Shown: positions 48,760-59,387 of the stretch, in pieces
How positions within the stretch are numbered: the first letter of the stretch is position 1
Layout of the letters: each line of letters begins with the position of its first letter
Source of the DNA: Niastella koreensis GR20-10
GTDB lineage: Bacteria; Bacteroidota; Bacteroidia; Chitinophagales; Chitinophagaceae
Assembly (NCBI RefSeq): GCF_000246855.1
Contig: NC_016609.1
Location: 62,001-126,000, forward strand
DNA: 64,000 nucleotides
Direction of reading: 5' to 3'
Program-made: the position numbers and the translations under genes
Notes under the pieces: model-generated
The model's input: the letters and a program-made list of their open reading frames with translations, nothing else
Told to the model about the DNA's origin: nothing
The model's database searches: none

Positions 48760-48820
48760 AGCAGGTTGTTATTCTCTTTAATAGCAAGCAACACAAAATC
48801 GAACAGCCTGCTTTTTTTTA
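48760..48820 (+). terminator. Terminator-like hairpin upstream of leuA (possible attenuator)
   Basis: An 11-bp stem AGCAGGTTGTT/AACAGCCTGCT (one G-U pair) with a 32-nt loop is followed by nine T, 28 bp before the leuA start codon. I see no leader peptide upstream, so if it attenuates leuA the sensor is not visible. Confidence 0.65.
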
Positions 48821-51377: not shown

Positions 51378-51451
51378 CTTATTAATGGCTGATGTATTGA
51401 TGACGCGAAGGCGAAGTGGGGCCAGAAAAACAAAAAATTAGAAAAAAGCTC

Positions 51452-51482
51452 TTTATTATTACAACCGGCGGGTGTATATTTG
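51452..51482 (+). promoter_or_regulatory. Promoter of the ilv leader
   Basis: TTTA at 51452-51455 (-33, one base off TTTG) and a perfect TATATTTG (-7) at 51475-51482, 19 bp apart. Transcription would start near 51489, 12 nt before the leader ATG. Confidence 0.7.
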
Positions 51483-51500
51483 TTGCACACGAATTCCTCT

Positions 51501-51602
51501 ATGCAAAGAAGCAGCTTTAATAACATCATCTCTGTGGTTACTGCAATAATAATTATTGTGGTGGTGGTGATTATTCCTGCAACGCATGGAGGTGGTGCTT
51601 AA
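51501..51602 (+). CDS. ilv leader peptide, 33 residues, Ile/Val-rich
   Basis: A small open frame starting MQRSSFNNIISVVTA and ending in PATHGGGA. It holds eight Ile and six Val, with an uninterrupted run of ten (four Ile, four Val, two Ile) at residues 16-25. There is no Leu. Together with the terminator at 51627 and the start of ilvD at 51710, this is the layout of amino acid attenuation: the ribosome pauses at Ile/Val codons when charged tRNA is short. I saw no longer alternative coding frame. Confidence 0.85.
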   Translation: MQRSSFNNIISVVTAIIIIVVVVIIPATHGGGA

Positions 51603-51636
51603 CGTATACTAAAAAACAGCATAAAGACCCGCCTCC
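51588..51636 (+). promoter_or_regulatory. Candidate antiterminator of the ilv attenuator
   Basis: GGAGGTGG at 51588-51595, in the last codons of the leader peptide, can pair over eight positions (one G-U) with CCGCCTCC at 51629-51636, which is most of the 5' arm of the terminator. The two structures exclude each other. A ribosome stalled in the Ile/Val run leaves the first strand free; one that reaches the stop codon covers it. Confidence 0.65.
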
Positions 51637-51654
51637 AACGAGGCGGGTTTTTTT
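51627..51654 (+). terminator. ilv attenuator terminator
   Basis: A perfect 9-bp stem ACCCGCCTC/GAGGCGGGT, loop CAAC, then seven T, 25 nt after the leader stop codon and 55 bp before ilvD. Confidence 0.9.
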
Positions 51655-51709
51655 ATGTCTCGAATAAATAATAAATAAATCCAATTTTAACAGTTTTTAG
51701 ACAGGTTTT

Positions 51710-53395
51710 ATGGCAGAAATAAACAAATATTCAAAGACACTTACGCAGGATGAAACCCAACCTGCCGCCCAGGCCATGTTATACGGCATTGGCTTAACTG
51801 ATGAAGATCTGAAGAAAGCACAGGTAGGTATTGCCAGCATGGGTTACGATGGCAACACCTGTAACATGCACCTGAACGACCTGGCTAAAATTGTAAAAGA
51901 AGGGGTGTGGGCTAACGACCTCGTAGGGTTGATCTTTAATACCATTGGGGTGAGTGATGGTATGAGCAACGGAACCGATGGGATGCGCTATTCACTGGTA
52001 AGCCGCGATGTTATTGCGGATTCCATTGAAGCGGTTTGTGGCGCACAATATTATGATGCCGTAATTACCATTCCTGGTTGCGATAAAAATATGCCGGGTT
52101 CATTAATGGCAATGGGCCGGTTGAACCGCCCTTCCATCATGGTATATGGTGGAACCATTGCACCCGGTCACTATAAAGGACAGGACCTGAATATTGTTTC
52201 TTCCTTTGAAGCGTTGGGACAAAAGATCGCCGGTAATCTGAGCGATGCCGATTTCAAAGGCATTGTAATGAACAGCTGCCCCGGCGCCGGCGCCTGTGGC
52301 GGTATGTACACGGCCAACACCATGGCATCGGCCATTGAAGCGTTGGGTATGAGTTTGCCTTACTCCTCATCAAACCCGGCGCTGAGTGAAGAGAAGCGAA
52401 AAGAATGTTTTGATGCCGGTAAGGCCATTCGCCTGCTGATGGAAAAAGATATCAAGCCAAAGGATATCATGACCCGCAAAGCCTTCGAGAACGCCATCAT
52501 CACTATTATGATCCTCGGCGGCAGTACCAACGCAGTTCTGCACCTGATCGCCATCGCCAAGAGTGTAGACGTTCCCCTCACACAAGACGACTTCCAGAAT
52601 ATAAGCAATAAGATCCCCATGCTGGCCGACTTTAAACCCAGCGGCAAATACCTGATGCAGGACCTGCACGAGCATGGTGGTTTGCCTTCAGTAATGAAGT
52701 ACCTGTTACAAAAAGGATTGCTGCATGGCGATTGCTTAACGGTAACCGGTAAAACTTTAGCTGAGAACCTGGCCAATGTTCCGGACCTGGACTTCAACAA
52801 ACAAAAAATAATTTTCCCGCTCGAAACACCTATCAAAGCTACCGGTCACTTACAAATTCTGTATGGTAACCTGGCTGAGAATGGCAGCGTAGCAAAGATC
52901 ACCGGTAAAGAAGGCGAACGTTTTGAAGGACCCGCCCGCGTATTCGATGGCGAGTTTGAACTGATTGCCGGTATTCAAAGTAAAAAAGTACAACCGGGCG
53001 ACGTAGTGGTGATCCGTTATGTAGGACCCAAAGGCGGACCTGGCATGCCGGAGATGCTGAAACCAACCTCCGCCCTGATTGGCGCCGGTTTAGGTAAAAG
53101 CGTAGCCCTTATAACTGATGGTCGTTTCAGCGGTGGTACGCACGGTTTTGTGGTAGGACACATTACCCCTGAAGCGTTTGATGGCGGCGGTTTGGCTTAT
53201 GTGAAAGATGGTGATATTATTGAGCTGGATGCCGTTAAGAATACCATCAATGCAAAGGTAAATGCCGACGAATGGGCAAAACGAAAAGCAGCGTGGAAAC
53301 AACCCCCACTGAAAGTAACAAAAGGACTATTGTATAAATATGCGAAGCAGGTAAAAGATGCTTCCGAAGGATGTGTAACTGATGAGGCGGAATAA
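51710..53395 (+). CDS. ilvD: Dihydroxy-acid dehydratase
   Basis: A 561-residue Fe-S dehydratase that forms the 2-oxo acids of valine and isoleucine. The Cys residues for the cluster are in [35 protein letters not shown] and [20 protein letters not shown] (about residues 46, 123 and 196). The C-terminal substrate domain has [20 protein letters not shown]. It is the first structural gene after the Ile/Val attenuator and is followed 39 bp later by ilvB. Confidence 0.95.
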
Positions 53396-53434
53396 AATTG
53401 AACTAAACGACAATTGAATCACAAAAAAAAGTTT

Positions 53435-55180
53435 ATGAGTACAATCGAAAAGGCACCTGCCAAAGGAACGACGGAAAAGAAGCCAGCAGTTAAAAATATC
53501 AGCGGCTCGGTCGCTGTGTTGGAAGCATTCCTGGCAGAGGGTGTCAGTACCATCTTTGGGTACCCAGGTGGCGCTATCATGCCTATCTATGATGCGCTGT
53601 ACGATTACCAGGAAAAACTACATCATATACTGGTGCGTCATGAACAGGGGGCTACCCATGCTGCCCAGGGTTATGCGCGCTCATCCGGCGAGGTTGGTGT
53701 CGTGTTCGCCACCAGTGGTCCTGGTGCTACCAACCTGGTAACAGGGTTGGCAGATGCCATGATCGATAGTACACCATTGGTATGTGTTACCGGCCAGGTG
53801 TTTGCGCACCTGCTGGGAACTGATGCATTCCAGGAAACAGACGTGATCAACATAACCACACCGGTAACCAAATGGAACTACCAGGTAACAGATGCTACCG
53901 AAATTCCAGCCGTGCTGGCAAAAGCGTTCTACATTGCCCGCAGCGGTCGTCCCGGCCCGGTGTTGATTGATATTACCAAGAACGCACAAATACAAAAATT
54001 CGATTACGAAGGCTATACCAAATGTGATCATGTACGCAGCTACCGCCCTGCACCCATAGTACGCAAAGAGTATGTAGCAGCGGCAGCCAGGCTGATCAAC
54101 GAAGCACAAAAACCTTTTGTGATCTTTGGTCAGGGTGTTATCCTGGGTAAAGCAGAACATGAGTTTATAAAGTTCATTGAAAAAGCGGGTATCCCTACCG
54201 CATGGACGGTTATGGGATTGAGCGCTATCCCTTCAGACCATCCGCTGAACGTTGGGATGCTGGGGATGCATGGTAATTATGGCCCCAACGTACTTACCAA
54301 CGAATGCGATGTATTGATCGCGATCGGGATGCGCTTCGATGACCGGGTTACCGGCCGGTTAGATAAATATGCTAAACAGGCAAAGGTGATTCACCTGGAT
54401 ATTGATCCGGCTGAAGTTGACAAGAACGTAAAAACAACTGTTCCGGTTTGGGGCGACTGTAAAGAAACCCTTCCTTTGTTAACCGCGCTGATAGAACAAA
54501 AAGTATATCCGCAATGGCTGCAAAAGTTCAAGGATATGATGAAAGAGGAAGAAGATGCCTGCATCAATCCTGAACTGAATCCCACCACCGATGAAATGAC
54601 TATGGGTGAAGTAATAAAAACCCTGAATGAATTGACTGGTGGCGATGCGATCATTGTAACCGACGTGGGCCAGCACCAGATGGTAGCCTGCCGTTATGCA
54701 AAATTCATACAATCGAAAAGTAATATCACCTCCGGTGGTTTGGGAACCATGGGCTTTGGCTTACCTGCAGCTATAGGTGCAAAAGTAGGCGCGCCCAAAA
54801 GAACTACCGTTGCTATCATTGGCGATGGCGGTTTCCAGATGACCCTCCAGGAACTGGGCACCATCATGCAAACAGACATCGATGTAAAGATCCTGATCCT
54901 GAATAACCAGTTCTTAGGTATGGTGCGCCAGTGGCAACAGCTGTTTAACGACAAGCGTTATTCATTCGTAGATATTGCCAGTCCTAATTTTGTAACGCTG
55001 GCCAGTGCATATAAAATACCCGGACAAAGTATTTCAAAAAGGGAAGACCTGAAAAAAGCATTGAGCGAAATGCTGAATACAAAAGGCGCTTACCTGTTGG
55101 AAGTAATGGTAGGGAAGGAGAACAACGTATTCCCGATGGTACCCCAGGGATGCAGCGTGGCGGAAATCCGTTTAAAATAA
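53435..55180 (+). CDS. ilvB: Acetolactate synthase, large (catalytic) subunit
   Basis: A 581-residue thiamine diphosphate enzyme that makes acetolactate or acetohydroxybutyrate. The catalytic Glu is in VRHEQGATHAAQGYARSSG (about residues 66-84), preceded by FGYPGGAIMPIYDAL. The ThDP motif is IGDGGFQMTLQELGTIMQTD, ending in LNNQFLGMVRQWQQLF. I used ATG 53435; the TTG at 53414 is weaker. It works with the small subunit encoded at 56023, with a methyltransferase gene placed between the two. Confidence 0.95.
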   Translation: MSTIEKAPAKGTTEKKPAVKNISGSVAVLEAFLAEGVSTIFGYPGGAIMPIYDALYDYQEKLHHILVRHEQGATHAAQGYARSSGEVGVVFATSGPGATNLVTGLADAMIDSTPLVCVTGQVFAHLLGTDAFQETDVINITTPVTKWNYQVTDATEIPAVLAKAFYIARSGRPGPVLIDITKNAQIQKFDYEGYTKCDHVRSYRPAPIVRKEYVAAAARLINEAQKPFVIFGQGVILGKAEHEFIKFIEKAGIPTAWTVMGLSAIPSDHPLNVGMLGMHGNYGPNVLTNECDVLIAIGMRFDDRVTGRLDKYAKQAKVIHLDIDPAEVDKNVKTTVPVWGDCKETLPLLTALIEQKVYPQWLQKFKDMMKEEEDACINPELNPTTDEMTMGEVIKTLNELTGGDAIIVTDVGQHQMVACRYAKFIQSKSNITSGGLGTMGFGLPAAIGAKVGAPKRTTVAIIGDGGFQMTLQELGTIMQTDIDVKILILNNQFLGMVRQWQQLFNDKRYSFVDIASPNFVTLASAYKIPGQSISKREDLKKALSEMLNTKGAYLLEVMVGKENNVFPMVPQGCSVAEIRLK

Positions 55181-55195
55181 TTTAAAAGGTAACGA

Positions 55196-55981
55196 ATGGC
55201 TATAACAGAAAAAAATACCTGGAATACTTCACTGTACGATAACAAACATGATTTTGTTTTCAAGTATGGTGAGTACCTGGTACAACAGCTGCTGACCCCA
55301 CAGGAAGGCGAACGTATTCTGGATATAGGGTGTGGTACCGGTTATTTAACCAGCCTGATCGCCGCATCCGGCGCAATGGTTACAGGGATGGATAGTTCAA
55401 TAGACATGATTGCCAGGGCGAGAAATGAATATCCACACCTGCCTTTCAGACTGGCCTCCGTAACCGACTTCGACTTTAATGAACCATTCGATGCCTTGTT
55501 TTCCAATGCAGTACTGCACTGGGTAACCGAAAAGGAACAGGCCATTCAATGCATGTATAAGAACCTGCGGCCCGGCGGCCGGCTGGTACTGGAGATGGGC
55601 GGAAAAGGAAACGTGCAACTGATTATGCGTGCTTTGAACAATGCGCTGATCGAGTACGGTTACCCCGAGAAGGCTGACCGCGATCACGAGCTCTGGTACT
55701 ATCCTTCCTTAAGCGAGTACACCGGTTTGTTGGAAAAACAGGGATTCAGGGTTACCTATGCGGCCCATTATAATCGCGAAACCGAATTGAAAGATGCGCA
55801 GGATGGCATCAAGGATTGGGTGAATATGTTTTGTGGCGCCTTGCTGGAAGGGGTAAGTGAGGATAAGAAAGAAAAGATCCTGGAACGCGCGCAGGAAACA
55901 TTACGGCAAACCCAGTTCAGGAACCAGAAATGGTATGCAGATTATAAAAGGTTACGCGTAGTAGCCATCAAAGAAAACTAA
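55196..55981 (+). CDS. Class I SAM-dependent methyltransferase inside the ilv operon
   Basis: A 261-residue methyltransferase with the SAM motif ILDIGCGTGYLTSLIAASGA (about residues 43-62), the acidic loop GMDSS, and a motif II/III region ALFSNAVLHWV (about 100-110). It resembles the trans-aconitate methyltransferase (Tam) group. Substrate unknown. It lies 15 bp after ilvB and 41 bp before ilvH and would be transcribed with them. Its place between the two subunits of one enzyme is unusual. Confidence 0.85.
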   Translation: MAITEKNTWNTSLYDNKHDFVFKYGEYLVQQLLTPQEGERILDIGCGTGYLTSLIAASGAMVTGMDSSIDMIARARNEYPHLPFRLASVTDFDFNEPFDALFSNAVLHWVTEKEQAIQCMYKNLRPGGRLVLEMGGKGNVQLIMRALNNALIEYGYPEKADRDHELWYYPSLSEYTGLLEKQGFRVTYAAHYNRETELKDAQDGIKDWVNMFCGALLEGVSEDKKEKILERAQETLRQTQFRNQKWYADYKRLRVVAIKEN

Positions 55982-56022
55982 AGCACAAATTGTAATTCAT
56001 CTAAAACCCATTGGGTTATATT

Positions 56023-56610
56023 ATGAAACAGGAATTCACCGTAACGGTATATACTGAGAACCAGATTGGCCTGCTGAACCGCATCGCCATCATGTTCTCG
56101 CGCCGTAAGATCAATATCGAGAGTTTGAATACCTCTCCTTCAGAAATCGAAGGCATCCACCGCTTTACCATTGTCATCAACGAAGTGGAAGAAGTAGTGA
56201 AAAAACTGGCGCGCCAGATTGAAAAACAAGTGGAAGTACTGAAAGCCTATTACAACACCAATGATGAAATTGTATGGCAGGAACTGGCTTTGTACAAAGT
56301 ACCAACCGATGAAATTGCTGAAAAAGTAAAAGTAGAACGGTTGTTGCGGGAGTATGGTGCAAGAGCAGTAGTGATCAGAAAAGATTATACCGTGTTTGAA
56401 ACCACCGGTCAGCGCGAAGAGATCAACAAACTCATTGCTGTACTGGAACCATTTGGTTTAATTGAATTTGTACGCAGCGCCCGGGTGGCCATCATTAAAG
56501 CAAGCAGTGGTTTCCACAGCAAGCTGAAAGAGTTTGAGAAAAAAGAACCCGGCGAAGAAGTAATCGAAAATGAATATTTAGGTAAAGGCGATCAGGTGTT
56601 TACCATGTAA
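56023..56610 (+). CDS. ilvH: Acetolactate synthase, small (regulatory) subunit
   Basis: A 195-residue subunit with an N-terminal ACT domain (FTVTVYTENQIGLLNRIAIM, then INIESLNTSPSEIEGIHRFT), and a C-terminal domain typical of longer IlvH/IlvN (LIAVLEPFGLIEFVRSARVA). It activates the large subunit and gives feedback control, usually by valine. I used ATG 56023; an upstream TTG at 56011 would add four residues. Confidence 0.92.
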   Translation: MKQEFTVTVYTENQIGLLNRIAIMFSRRKINIESLNTSPSEIEGIHRFTIVINEVEEVVKKLARQIEKQVEVLKAYYNTNDEIVWQELALYKVPTDEIAEKVKVERLLREYGARAVVIRKDYTVFETTGQREEINKLIAVLEPFGLIEFVRSARVAIIKASSGFHSKLKEFEKKEPGEEVIENEYLGKGDQVFTM

Positions 56611-56716
56611 ACACTGAAGGAAAAACGCTTAACGCTATACGCAAAATACAGGAAAGGCAGTAAGGACACTTACTTTCCAATACACAAAAAACCAATAACA
56701 ATAAACATTCTCAACA

Positions 56717-57784
56717 ATGGCAAAATTAAATTTCGGCGGGGTGGAAGAAAATGTAGTAACTCGTGATGAGTTCCCACTTGCCAAAGCGCAACAGGTATTG
56801 AAAAATGAAGTAGTAGCTGTAATTGGCTACGGTGTACAAGGTCCAGGCCAGGCGCTGAACCAGAAAGACAATGGTATCAATGTAATCGTAGGCCAGCGGA
56901 AAAATTCAAAAACCTGGGATAAAGCGGTGAAAGATGGTTTTGTACCCGGCGAAACATTGTTCGAAATTGAAGAAGCATTACAACGTGGTACTATCATTTG
57001 CTACCTGTTGAGCGATGCTGCCCAGATTCAACTGTGGCCTACCGTTAAAAAACATTTAACTGCAGGTAAAGCATTATATTTCTCACACGGTTTTGGTATC
57101 ACCTTCAACGAGCAAACAGGCATCGTTCCTCCTAAAGATGTAGACGTGTTCCTGGTAGCTCCTAAAGGTTCTGGAACTTCACTGCGTCGCATGTTCCTGC
57201 AAGGCCGTGGTTTGAACAGTAGCTATGCCATCTTCCAGGATGCTACTGGTAAGGCTAAAGAAAGAGTAACTGCTCTGGGTATTGCTGTTGGTAGCGGTTA
57301 CCTGTTTGAAACCGATTTCAAAAAAGAAGTATACAGCGACTTAACCGGTGAAAGAGGAACCCTGATGGGTGCTATTCAAGGTATCTTCGCTGCACAATAC
57401 CAGGTATTGCGTAGTAAAGGCCATACCCCTTCAGAAGCATTCAACGAAACTGTTGAAGAGCTGACTCAGTCACTGATGCCACTGGTTGCAGAAAATGGTA
57501 TGGATTGGATGTATGCCAACTGTAGCACTACTGCTCAACGCGGTGCATTGGATTGGTGGAAGAAATTCCGCGATGCTACATTGCCTGTATTCAACGACCT
57601 GTATGAAAGCGTTGCTACCGGTAAGGAATCTCAACGTTCAATCGACAGCAACAGCCAGGTTGACTACCGTGAGAAACTGGAAGCGGAGCTGAAAGAACTG
57701 CGTGAAAGCGAAATGTGGCAAGCCGGTAAAACAGTTCGCAGCCTTCGTCCGGAAAATCAAAAACCAGCCGAAGTAGTTGCGTAA
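56717..57784 (+). CDS. ilvC: Ketol-acid reductoisomerase
   Basis: A 355-residue NADPH enzyme of the second step of valine/isoleucine synthesis. The Rossmann loop VIGYGVQGPGQALNQKDNGI (about residues 35-54) and the NADPH-side GQRKNSKTWDKA are present. Metal ligands fit DLTGERGTLMGAIQGIFAAQ (about 212-231), and Glu residues in NETVEELTQSLMPLV. The length is that of the short, class I type. A short heptamer array and a terminator follow. Confidence 0.94.
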   Translation: MAKLNFGGVEENVVTRDEFPLAKAQQVLKNEVVAVIGYGVQGPGQALNQKDNGINVIVGQRKNSKTWDKAVKDGFVPGETLFEIEEALQRGTIICYLLSDAAQIQLWPTVKKHLTAGKALYFSHGFGITFNEQTGIVPPKDVDVFLVAPKGSGTSLRRMFLQGRGLNSSYAIFQDATGKAKERVTALGIAVGSGYLFETDFKKEVYSDLTGERGTLMGAIQGIFAAQYQVLRSKGHTPSEAFNETVEELTQSLMPLVAENGMDWMYANCSTTAQRGALDWWKKFRDATLPVFNDLYESVATGKESQRSIDSNSQVDYREKLEAELKELRESEMWQAGKTVRSLRPENQKPAEVVA

Positions 57785-57785
57785 G

Positions 57786-57834
57786 TCAATAGGCAATAGA
57801 CAATAGCCAATAAGCAATTGCCTATTGCCAATTA
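57786..57834. repeat. 7-bp phased array, seven units
   Basis: Seven exact heptamers just after the ilvC stop codon, TCAATAG, GCAATAG, ACAATAG, and then their near-complements CCTATTG and CCAATTA. The two parts can pair. Confidence 0.75.
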
Positions 57835-57836
57835 AA

Positions 57837-57912
57837 ATAGCCACCGTTCTGAAATTTCTGATAACTAAAACAGCGGAAAAAATTTCAATAAAGGACGGTG
57901 GCTATTTTTTTC
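57837..57912 (+). terminator. Long terminator between ilvC and ilvA
   Basis: An 11-bp stem ATAGCCACCGT/ACGGTGGCTAT with an inner stem (TGAAATTT with AAATTTCA), then seven T. It ends 30 bp before the ilvA start codon, so it either separates ilvA or attenuates it; no leader peptide is seen. Confidence 0.8.
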
Positions 57913-57942
57913 CTGAGCGGAGTAGAAGGACAAAAATCAAAT

Positions 57943-59199
57943 ATGAGCACATTCACACAAACCAGGCCCGAACTGGAATTTCATAAAGCAGCCCTGCGGT
58001 TGAAAAAGGTGGTGAACAAAACCCCACTGATGTACAACCACAACCTGTCGAAGAAGTACCAGTGCAATGTGTACCTGAAGCGGGAAGATCTGCAGGTTGT
58101 ACGGTCGTACAAATTGCGGGGAGCGTATAACATGATGAGCAGTTTGCCTGTTGAGCAATTACAGCGCGGGGTGGTATGTGCCAGTGCGGGCAACCATGCA
58201 CAGGGCTTTGCCTTCTCCTGCAAAAAGCTGAATGTAAAGGGTGTGGTTTTTATGCCCATTATAACACCGAGGCAAAAGGTGAACCAAACCAAAATGTTTG
58301 GTGAGGAGAACATCGAAATTCAATTGATCGGCGATACGTTTGATGATTGCGCCATCGCTGCCAAACAGTATACCGAGCAGCAGGGCATGACCTTCATTCC
58401 GCCATTTGATGATTACCGTATTATTGAAGGACAGGGAACCGTAGCTGTTGAAATACTGGAAGAACAAACGGATATTGATTATGTGTTTATACCGGTAGGT
58501 GGTGGAGGCTTAAGTGCCGGGGTTGGATCGTATATGAAAACGTATTCACCCAAAACAAAAATTATTGGCTGCGAGCCCGAAGGCGCTCCTTCCATGTTTG
58601 AAGCGTTAAAGGCAGGTGCACCCGTATTGTTAAGCGAGATAGATCGCTTTGTGGATGGGGCAGCTGTTAAAAGAGTAGGGGACATTACTTTCTCTATTTG
58701 TAAAGAGGTGTTGGATGATATGCACCTGGTACCGGAAGGAAAAGCCTGTTCAACCATTTTGAAATTGTACAATGAAGATGCTATTGTTGTTGAACCGGCT
58801 GGTGCATTATCAATCGCGGCATTGGATGATTATGCCGAAGCCATAAAAGGCAAGACTGTTGTATGTATAATAAGCGGCAGCAACAATGATATTGATCGCA
58901 TGCAGGAGATAAAAGAAAGGAGCCTGCAGTATGAAGGGTTGAAACATTATTTCCTGGTAAAGTTTGCACAACGGCCAGGCGCCCTGAAAGAGTTTGTGAA
59001 TCACGTACTGGGACCCAATGATGACATTACACGGTTTGAGTATATGCAAAAAACAAACAAAGAAACCGGACCTGCTTTAGTAGGTGTTGAGTTGAAGAAA
59101 AAAGAAGACTACGATATACTGTTGCAGAACATGCAACGTTATAACATAAACTATACAGCGTTAAATAAGAACGATACGCTGTTTGGGTATTTGGTATAG
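57943..59199 (+). CDS. ilvA: Threonine dehydratase (biosynthetic)
   Basis: A 418-residue PLP enzyme that forms 2-oxobutanoate from threonine for isoleucine synthesis. The PLP lysine is in VRSYKLRGAYNMM (about residues 48-60); the phosphate-binding Gly loop is VGGGGLSAGVG (about 185-195). A single C-terminal ACT-like regulatory segment starts near YFLVKFAQRPGALKEFVNHV (about 335). I used ATG 57943; the frame is open to 57898 but that part is the terminator. It ends the branched-chain cluster. Confidence 0.93.
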   Translation: MSTFTQTRPELEFHKAALRLKKVVNKTPLMYNHNLSKKYQCNVYLKREDLQVVRSYKLRGAYNMMSSLPVEQLQRGVVCASAGNHAQGFAFSCKKLNVKGVVFMPIITPRQKVNQTKMFGEENIEIQLIGDTFDDCAIAAKQYTEQQGMTFIPPFDDYRIIEGQGTVAVEILEEQTDIDYVFIPVGGGGLSAGVGSYMKTYSPKTKIIGCEPEGAPSMFEALKAGAPVLLSEIDRFVDGAAVKRVGDITFSICKEVLDDMHLVPEGKACSTILKLYNEDAIVVEPAGALSIAALDDYAEAIKGKTVVCIISGSNNDIDRMQEIKERSLQYEGLKHYFLVKFAQRPGALKEFVNHVLGPNDDITRFEYMQKTNKETGPALVGVELKKKEDYDILLQNMQRYNINYTALNKNDTLFGYLV

Positions 59200-59226
59200 A
59201 CAAATTTGTTATCTGTTTAAGTGGTG

Positions 59227-59254
59227 GCCCCTCGATCTATCGGGGGGCTTTTGT
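59227..59254 (+). terminator. Terminator after ilvA
   Basis: A GCCCCTCGA/TCGGGGGGC stem with one G-U pair and a 4-nt loop is followed by TTTTG. It lies 27 bp after the ilvA stop. Confidence 0.8.
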
Positions 59255-59356: not shown

Positions 59357-59387
59357 AAAAACCCCCCGATACTTCGGGGGGCTTTTT
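59357..59387. terminator. Bidirectional terminator-like hairpin
   Basis: A perfect 8-bp stem CCCCCCGA/TCGGGGGG with loop TACT, A-rich on the left and CTTTTT on the right. Confidence 0.75.

Follow-up and report, generated by a model that had tools for sequence, protein, structure and literature searches.

Organization of the ilvD leader region

The window (the whole 64,000-nt stretch of DNA analysed here) belongs to a genome consisting of a single contig of 9.03 Mb. On its forward strand, leuA and leuB are followed by a short leader, a terminator, and then ilvD, ilvB, a methyltransferase gene, ilvN/H, ilvC and ilvA, the gene names being assigned from Pfam matches. The distance from the end of leuB (51377, same strand) to the leader ATG is 123 nt. 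The following features were recognised:

51448..51482, + strand: promoter, with a GCTCTTT upstream element and the -7 box TATATTTG at 51475-51482
51494..51499, + strand: candidate strand 1, TTCCTC in the short 5' UTR, proposed from predicted folds
51501..51602, + strand: leader peptide frame of 33 codons, from the ATG at 51501 to the stop codon TAA at 51600-51602, encoding MQRSSFNNIISVVTAIIIIVVVVIIPATHGGGA
51546..51575, + strand: sensing run of ten consecutive Ile/Val codons (IIIIVVVVII), read from the sequence
51588..51595, + strand: strand 2, the 5' half of the putative antiterminator, GGAGGTGG, formed by Gly codons
51629..51636, + strand: strand 3, CCGCCTCC, common to the putative antiterminator and the terminator
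51623..51654, + strand: intrinsic terminator (strands 3:4), stem at 51623-51652 and T-run at 51648-51654
51710..53395, + strand: ilvD, dihydroxy-acid dehydratase, the first gene presumed to be controlled
53414..59199, + strand: remainder of the presumed operon (ilvB, methyltransferase, ilvN/H, ilvC, ilvA), presumably co-transcribed

The initial annotation had placed here a promoter box, a 33-codon leader with ten Ile/Val codons, a terminator and the start of ilvD, all of which can be read directly, and had paired 51588-51595 with 51629-51636; these two stretches are complementary over their full length, with eight pairs including a single G-U. For the promoter box, the flavobacterial -7 consensus is TAnnTTTG, as it appears in parts of the Flavobacterium psychrophilum study (PMC9723704). 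Within the genus the promoter directly 5' of the leader is conserved, and it can be recognised in many relatives; in many of them the upstream element reads AGTTCTTTGTTT. In many of the leader promoters (51465-51482 in the window, and in relatives), GGCGGG abuts the -7 box TATATT(T/C)(G/A), with AGTTCTTTGTTT lying farther 5'; such a G-rich stretch is unexpected in the spacer of a promoter of this kind and might act as an operator. Farther downstream, the methyltransferase gene (55196-55981) separates ilvB from ilvN/H, and two GC-rich terminator-like hairpins (59226-59249 and 59362-59381) follow within ~190 nt 3' of ilvA.

Conservation and spread of the leader

The leader is present in nine of the ten genomes of the genus, the window's own included, the contig of the tenth stopping before the site. 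Within the genus, the leaders show few residue differences, with a whole-codon difference in one genome. The pattern GGAGGYGG-N20..50-CCGCCTCC has a single match in the 9.03-Mb genome, namely the ilvD leader, and no second copy of the attenuator was found there with this exact pattern.

Outside the genus, loci were scanned with a strict rule calling for an ATG frame with at least 8 Ile/Val codons, an Ile/Val run of at least 4 and a terminator within ~100 nt. Among 147 genomes searched in the family, 101 possess ilvD (upstream reach 0.5 to 2.4 kb), and an Ile/Val leader with terminator was detected in 72 of these 101 loci as against one on the reverse strand. The initial annotation had expected the leader peptide to be conserved in relatives, and those examined bear this out, both in the genus (9/10 genomes) and in the family (72/101 loci). 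A relaxed rule passes five of the 29 loci that fail the strict scan, and two further failures show leaders whose terminator was missed by the rule. Under the relaxed rule, the family yields 77/101 loci on the forward and 36/101 on the reverse strand. In 60 loci of the phylum outside the family, taken from 76 genomes with ilvD, the strict rule is satisfied 11 times (0 on the reverse strand) and the relaxed rule 31 times (8 on the reverse strand). Since the reverse strand passes the relaxed rule in 36/101 and 8/60 cases, single relaxed matches are weak. A putative Ile/Val attenuator is present at ilvD far beyond chance, and the predicted element is spread in Bacteroidota, where it sometimes occurs in tandem.

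After removal of seven loci that had been fetched twice, 115 leader rows remained, 86 of them at <75% identity. These 86 non-redundant leaders include five Chryseobacterium rows; the other 81 form the family alignment, A1. Ile accounts for 24% of the codons in the 86 leaders, Val for 16% and Leu for 7%. The absence of Leu codons, from which it had been argued that leucine would not be sensed, holds for the window leader and for the nine leaders of its genus, but not more widely: 77 of the 86 leaders contain at least one Leu codon, and in 22 of the 86 Leu lies inside the longest run. Ile and Val are the predicted general signal, and some lineages may respond to Leu as well.

Evidence for base pairing in the leader RNA

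In the 81 family sequences, 91.0% of the 643 cells of the antiterminator helix (2:3) are paired, compared with 50-72% in slid controls. Its covariation score and its number of double-change cells were matched by none of 500 shuffles, the number of pairs with a double change by 7/500 and that of further pair types by 50/500, these shuffles ignoring relatedness. The terminator (3:4) is stronger than 2:3 on all covariation measures, with 97.8% of cells paired, 35 double-change cells and 0/500 on every measure in shuffles that likewise ignore relatedness.

Strands 2 and 3 were also exchanged between leaders in a swap test using 21 hand-picked rows, one per terminator type, some of these types resembling one another; the types were taken from 45 rows, two of the 47 hand-picked ones having no terminator by the rule. 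The mean energy of the 2:3 duplex was -13.6 kcal/mol with the leader's own partner and -8.2 kcal/mol with swapped partners, and none of 20,000 permutations was as good. The own partner tops its row in 12 of the 21 types, while two types rank 16 and 10; shuffled strand-2 regions were beaten at p<0.05 in 15 types and not in the other six. Paired changes in strands 2 and 3 can be followed individually, as in GGAAGTGG/CCACTTCC (L163, L171) and, in Chryseobacterium, GAAACGGC/GCCGTTTC and GTGAGA/TCTCAC.

Two relatives separate the RNA strand from the peptide that it encodes. In leader L129, GGAGGTGG is translated in a different frame (..REVV*), and in leader L160 the stop codon stands immediately 5' of GGTGG, so that the RNA, and not the peptide end, seems to be what is kept. 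The 2:3 pairing looks to be maintained by selection at the RNA level. Synonymous recoding hardly weakens 2:3 (p<0.05 in 7 of the 86 leaders) and is uninformative for this helix, because the Gly codons alone impose GGN.

Strand 2 (51588-51595) also contains GGAGGUG, which we take to be a perfect Shine-Dalgarno sequence, in a phylum that mostly initiates translation without such sequences. As the strand-2 sequences of other lineages are unrelated to it, this likeness is probably a coincidence. The absence of Shine-Dalgarno sequences is mentioned in parts of PMC9723704.

Geometry and proposed mechanism

A spacer of 12 or 13 nt separates the Ile/Val run from the strand-2 helix in 60 of the 86 leaders; across the whole set the median is 13 nt and the range 8-33 nt. 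In the window leader, strand 2 begins 12 nt beyond the run. Relative to the last base of the stop codon, the strand-2 helix has its end in the interval from -16 to +8 nt in all 86 leaders. A ribosome reaches about 10 nt past the codon that it occupies, and with a gap of 12-13 nt a stalled ribosome should therefore leave strand 2 free. When the RNA was folded as free from 10 nt past the run, 2:3 was predicted to form in 86/86 leaders, which, together with the 12-nt gap, agrees with the earlier proposal that a ribosome stalled in the run would leave this strand available. The fold representing a ribosome at the stop was started 9 nt past the stop codon, and 2:3 is absent there by construction.

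A run of cognate codons is found in a short frame ahead of ilvD-ilvB-ilvN-ilvC-ilvA, an intrinsic terminator lies between the leader frame and ilvD, and a mutually exclusive antiterminator is present at the position that a ribosome on the stop codon would be expected to cover. We infer from these sequence features that the leader is very probably a ribosome-mediated transcription attenuator measuring charged Ile-tRNA and Val-tRNA, through predicted ribosome stalling, read-through and coupling. The Ile/Val leader-peptide attenuator of the initial annotation, whose terminal Gly codons supply the antiterminator strand, is in this respect upheld by conservation, covariation, the swap tests and spacing. 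Transcription would start ~13 nt 5' of the leader ATG, to judge from the -7 box. With ample Ile and Val, the ribosome would proceed to the stop codon and mask strand 2 (51588-51595), 3:4 would pair and RNA polymerase would halt ahead of ilvD. If Ile or Val were scarce, the ribosome would pause in the run with its leading edge just short of strand 2; this strand would then be free to pair with strand 3, the terminator would be blocked and the ilv genes would be transcribed.

The terminator might merely end the leuB transcript, the frame encoding an independent small hydrophobic protein. Such an arrangement would suit both the co-directional leuB, whose end (51377) is 123 nt away from the leader ATG, and the strongly hydrophobic character of the leader peptide. 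We nevertheless consider it very improbable, as leuB and the leader are separated by a conserved promoter, 2:3 covaries, and the end of the peptide varies while the RNA strand persists (L129, L160). It is likewise very improbable that the terminator answers to another ligand or protein (a T-box, ppGpp or another riboswitch) with the frame being incidental: T-boxes or ppGpp riboswitches do serve some ilv leaders elsewhere, according to parts of PMC5794164 and PMC10272879, yet the window and 20 related loci contain no Rfam family at gathering score, and the in-frame Ile/Val run stands at a near-fixed distance from strand 2.

A classical three-hairpin version of the attenuator, in which a strand 1 (the 5' UTR TTCCTC and/or the head of the leader) pairs with strand 2 and the untranslated leader terminates, is conceivable, although we regard it as doubtful; it would differ from the initial annotation, which saw no separate pause hairpin. 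Before strand 3 is present, the mean probability of pairing between strand 2 and the 5' part is 0.68 over the 86 leaders. It falls to 0.56 when the heads are recoded synonymously and to 0.53 when the 5' UTRs are shuffled, a separate calculation giving a similar picture, and partition functions attribute most of this pairing to the 5' UTR (0.54 vs 0.34). For the window's own leader, however, the controls are no lower (0.71 for the real sequence, 0.71 for synonymous heads and 0.95 for shuffled 5' UTRs). Folded without its 5' UTR, the window leader does pair its head with strand 2, which suggested a strand 1 confined to that head, but the duplex energies lend it no support (-8.98 vs -8.90 after synonymous recoding; p<0.05 in 4/86 leaders, no excess) and the partition functions favour the 5' UTR, except in the window's own leader. 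When the RNA extends to the terminator loop and includes strand 3, 2:3 prevails in 82/86 leaders, from which read-through by default would follow, and the pyrimidine-rich 5' UTR could instead be kept for initiation. A strand 1 in the 5' UTR that acts kinetically is, from these folds, possible.

Comparison with known leaders

The two-strand design had been called unusual. This does not stand, since in E. coli thrL, ilvL and ivbL strand 2 likewise falls within the terminal part of the leader frame or straddles its end: with the last base of the stop codon as reference, it occupies -12..-2 in thrL, -34..-26 in ilvL and -9..+2 in ivbL, while in trpL and pheL it is located just past the stop codon. 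Folding untranslated RNA as far as the terminator loop gives 2:3 a probability of 0.97 for the window leader, 0.84 for ilvL, 0.83 for ivbL, 0.35 for thrL and 0.00 for trpL and pheL; by these values, not all E. coli leaders favour a protector (1:2) hairpin either. Because both the position of strand 2 and the untranslated 2:3 preference agree, the design closely resembles the one seen in the ilv leaders of E. coli. The E. coli leaders leuL and hisL were omitted from the comparison because the best duplex found in them may, we assume, differ from the known antiterminator.

With ilvL and ivbL, the window leader shares a BCAA-rich frame (32 codons in E. coli), an antiterminator strand that sits within this frame or crosses its end and an intrinsic terminator after the leader (23 nt past the stop in E. 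coli); the ilvL peptide contains VVVIIIP, as do many Chitinophagaceae leaders. It differs from them in its lack of Leu codons, which ilvL and ivbL possess, and in the gap between the longest regulatory run and strand 2, which is 5-6 nt in E. coli and 12 nt in the window. The resemblance between the two is likely convergent. The thrABC leader of E. coli (thrL, RF00506) similarly has strand 2 in its last Gly/Ala codons, with the terminator 16 nt on; unlike the window leader, it uses Thr/Ile codons and its untranslated 2:3 is not favoured (0.35). The corresponding Rfam model, Thr_leader (RF00506), gave the sub-threshold match of lowest E-value (27.7 bits, E 0.0024, against a cut-off of 55 bits). 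With Rfam 15 at gathering score, T-box and riboswitches included, neither the window nor the 20 related loci gave any match. This also applies to Bacteroid-trp (RF01692), presumably a trp leader from its name, for which there was no gathering-score match in the window or the 20 loci. This RNA is listed as a Bacteroidetes cis-regulatory motif in part of PMC2864571.

In Corynebacterium, the ilvB-II and ilvB-OMG motifs are BCAA-rich uORF motifs upstream of ilvB genes, and ilvB-II, likened here by its published description, also has a terminator and an antiterminator (parts of PMC10272879). Nearer to the window, the work on the 5' regulatory RNAs of F. psychrophilum, a member of the same phylum, offers strong hints that leader peptides attenuate amino-acid operons (parts of PMC9723704); "ilv" is absent from the main text of that article, as far as this text goes. 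For B. thetaiotaomicron, small frames reminiscent of attenuation leaders are mentioned in part of PMC7366714. Among the matches listed, no title or abstract opening names an ilv attenuator of Bacteroidota, and an earlier mention is possible in the Lopatovskaya 2010 survey. On sequence grounds, the window leader is very probably a new member of the known class of leader-peptide attenuators, near the E. coli ilv leaders.

ilvE, tandem units and implications

In nine congeners ilvE lies directly 5' of ilvD, and in the eight of these with a readable leader the latter stands 5' of ilvE. The window locus lacks ilvE, and its stretch 51655-51710 matches the one found 3' of ilvE in three congeners (L003-L005). 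Three other aminotransferases of the IlvE class, with 24-32% identity to a congener's IlvE, are encoded in the window genome.

Two serial Ile/Val leader-terminator units precede ilvE/ilvD in 7/7 Chryseobacterium loci (L098, L106, L108, L112, L115, L116, L118), and tandem units are likewise found in the Bacteroidota loci L208, L209 and L246. In L098, the second ATG follows the first hairpin by only ~28 nt, too little space for a second full promoter.

One could go further and propose that ribosome-mediated BCAA attenuators exist phylum-wide in Bacteroidota, that the ~13-nt 5' UTR doubles as strand 1 and that Chryseobacterium-like lineages carry two units on one transcript, a combination that we consider unlikely. 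If true, a single RNA of ~170 nt would read leader initiation, Ile/Val charging and termination. Ribosome-mediated attenuation requires a ribosome close behind RNA polymerase, and conserved attenuators in Bacteroidota, where Shine-Dalgarno initiation is largely lacking, would be evidence of transcription-translation coupling, at least at operon starts. The attenuator would also explain the small Ile/Val-rich frames ahead of ilv genes, and the Bacteroidota ilv leaders would offer a ready set of natural variants. Beyond these points, the leader represents expected regulation for an expected operon.

A conserved hairpin upstream of leuA

A separate element was noticed at 48760-48820, upstream of leuA (48849), where a hairpin with 11-nt arms (AGCAGGTTGTT / AACAGCCTGCT) and a 31-nt loop is followed by a T-run. 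No Ile/Val leader is visible there by eye, and Rfam has no match in the window. The hairpin is nearly invariant in 10/10 genomes of the genus, the window's own included, and its loop contains a conserved TAGCAAGCAAC that could pair alternatively, making it a candidate for a novel leuA regulatory RNA.
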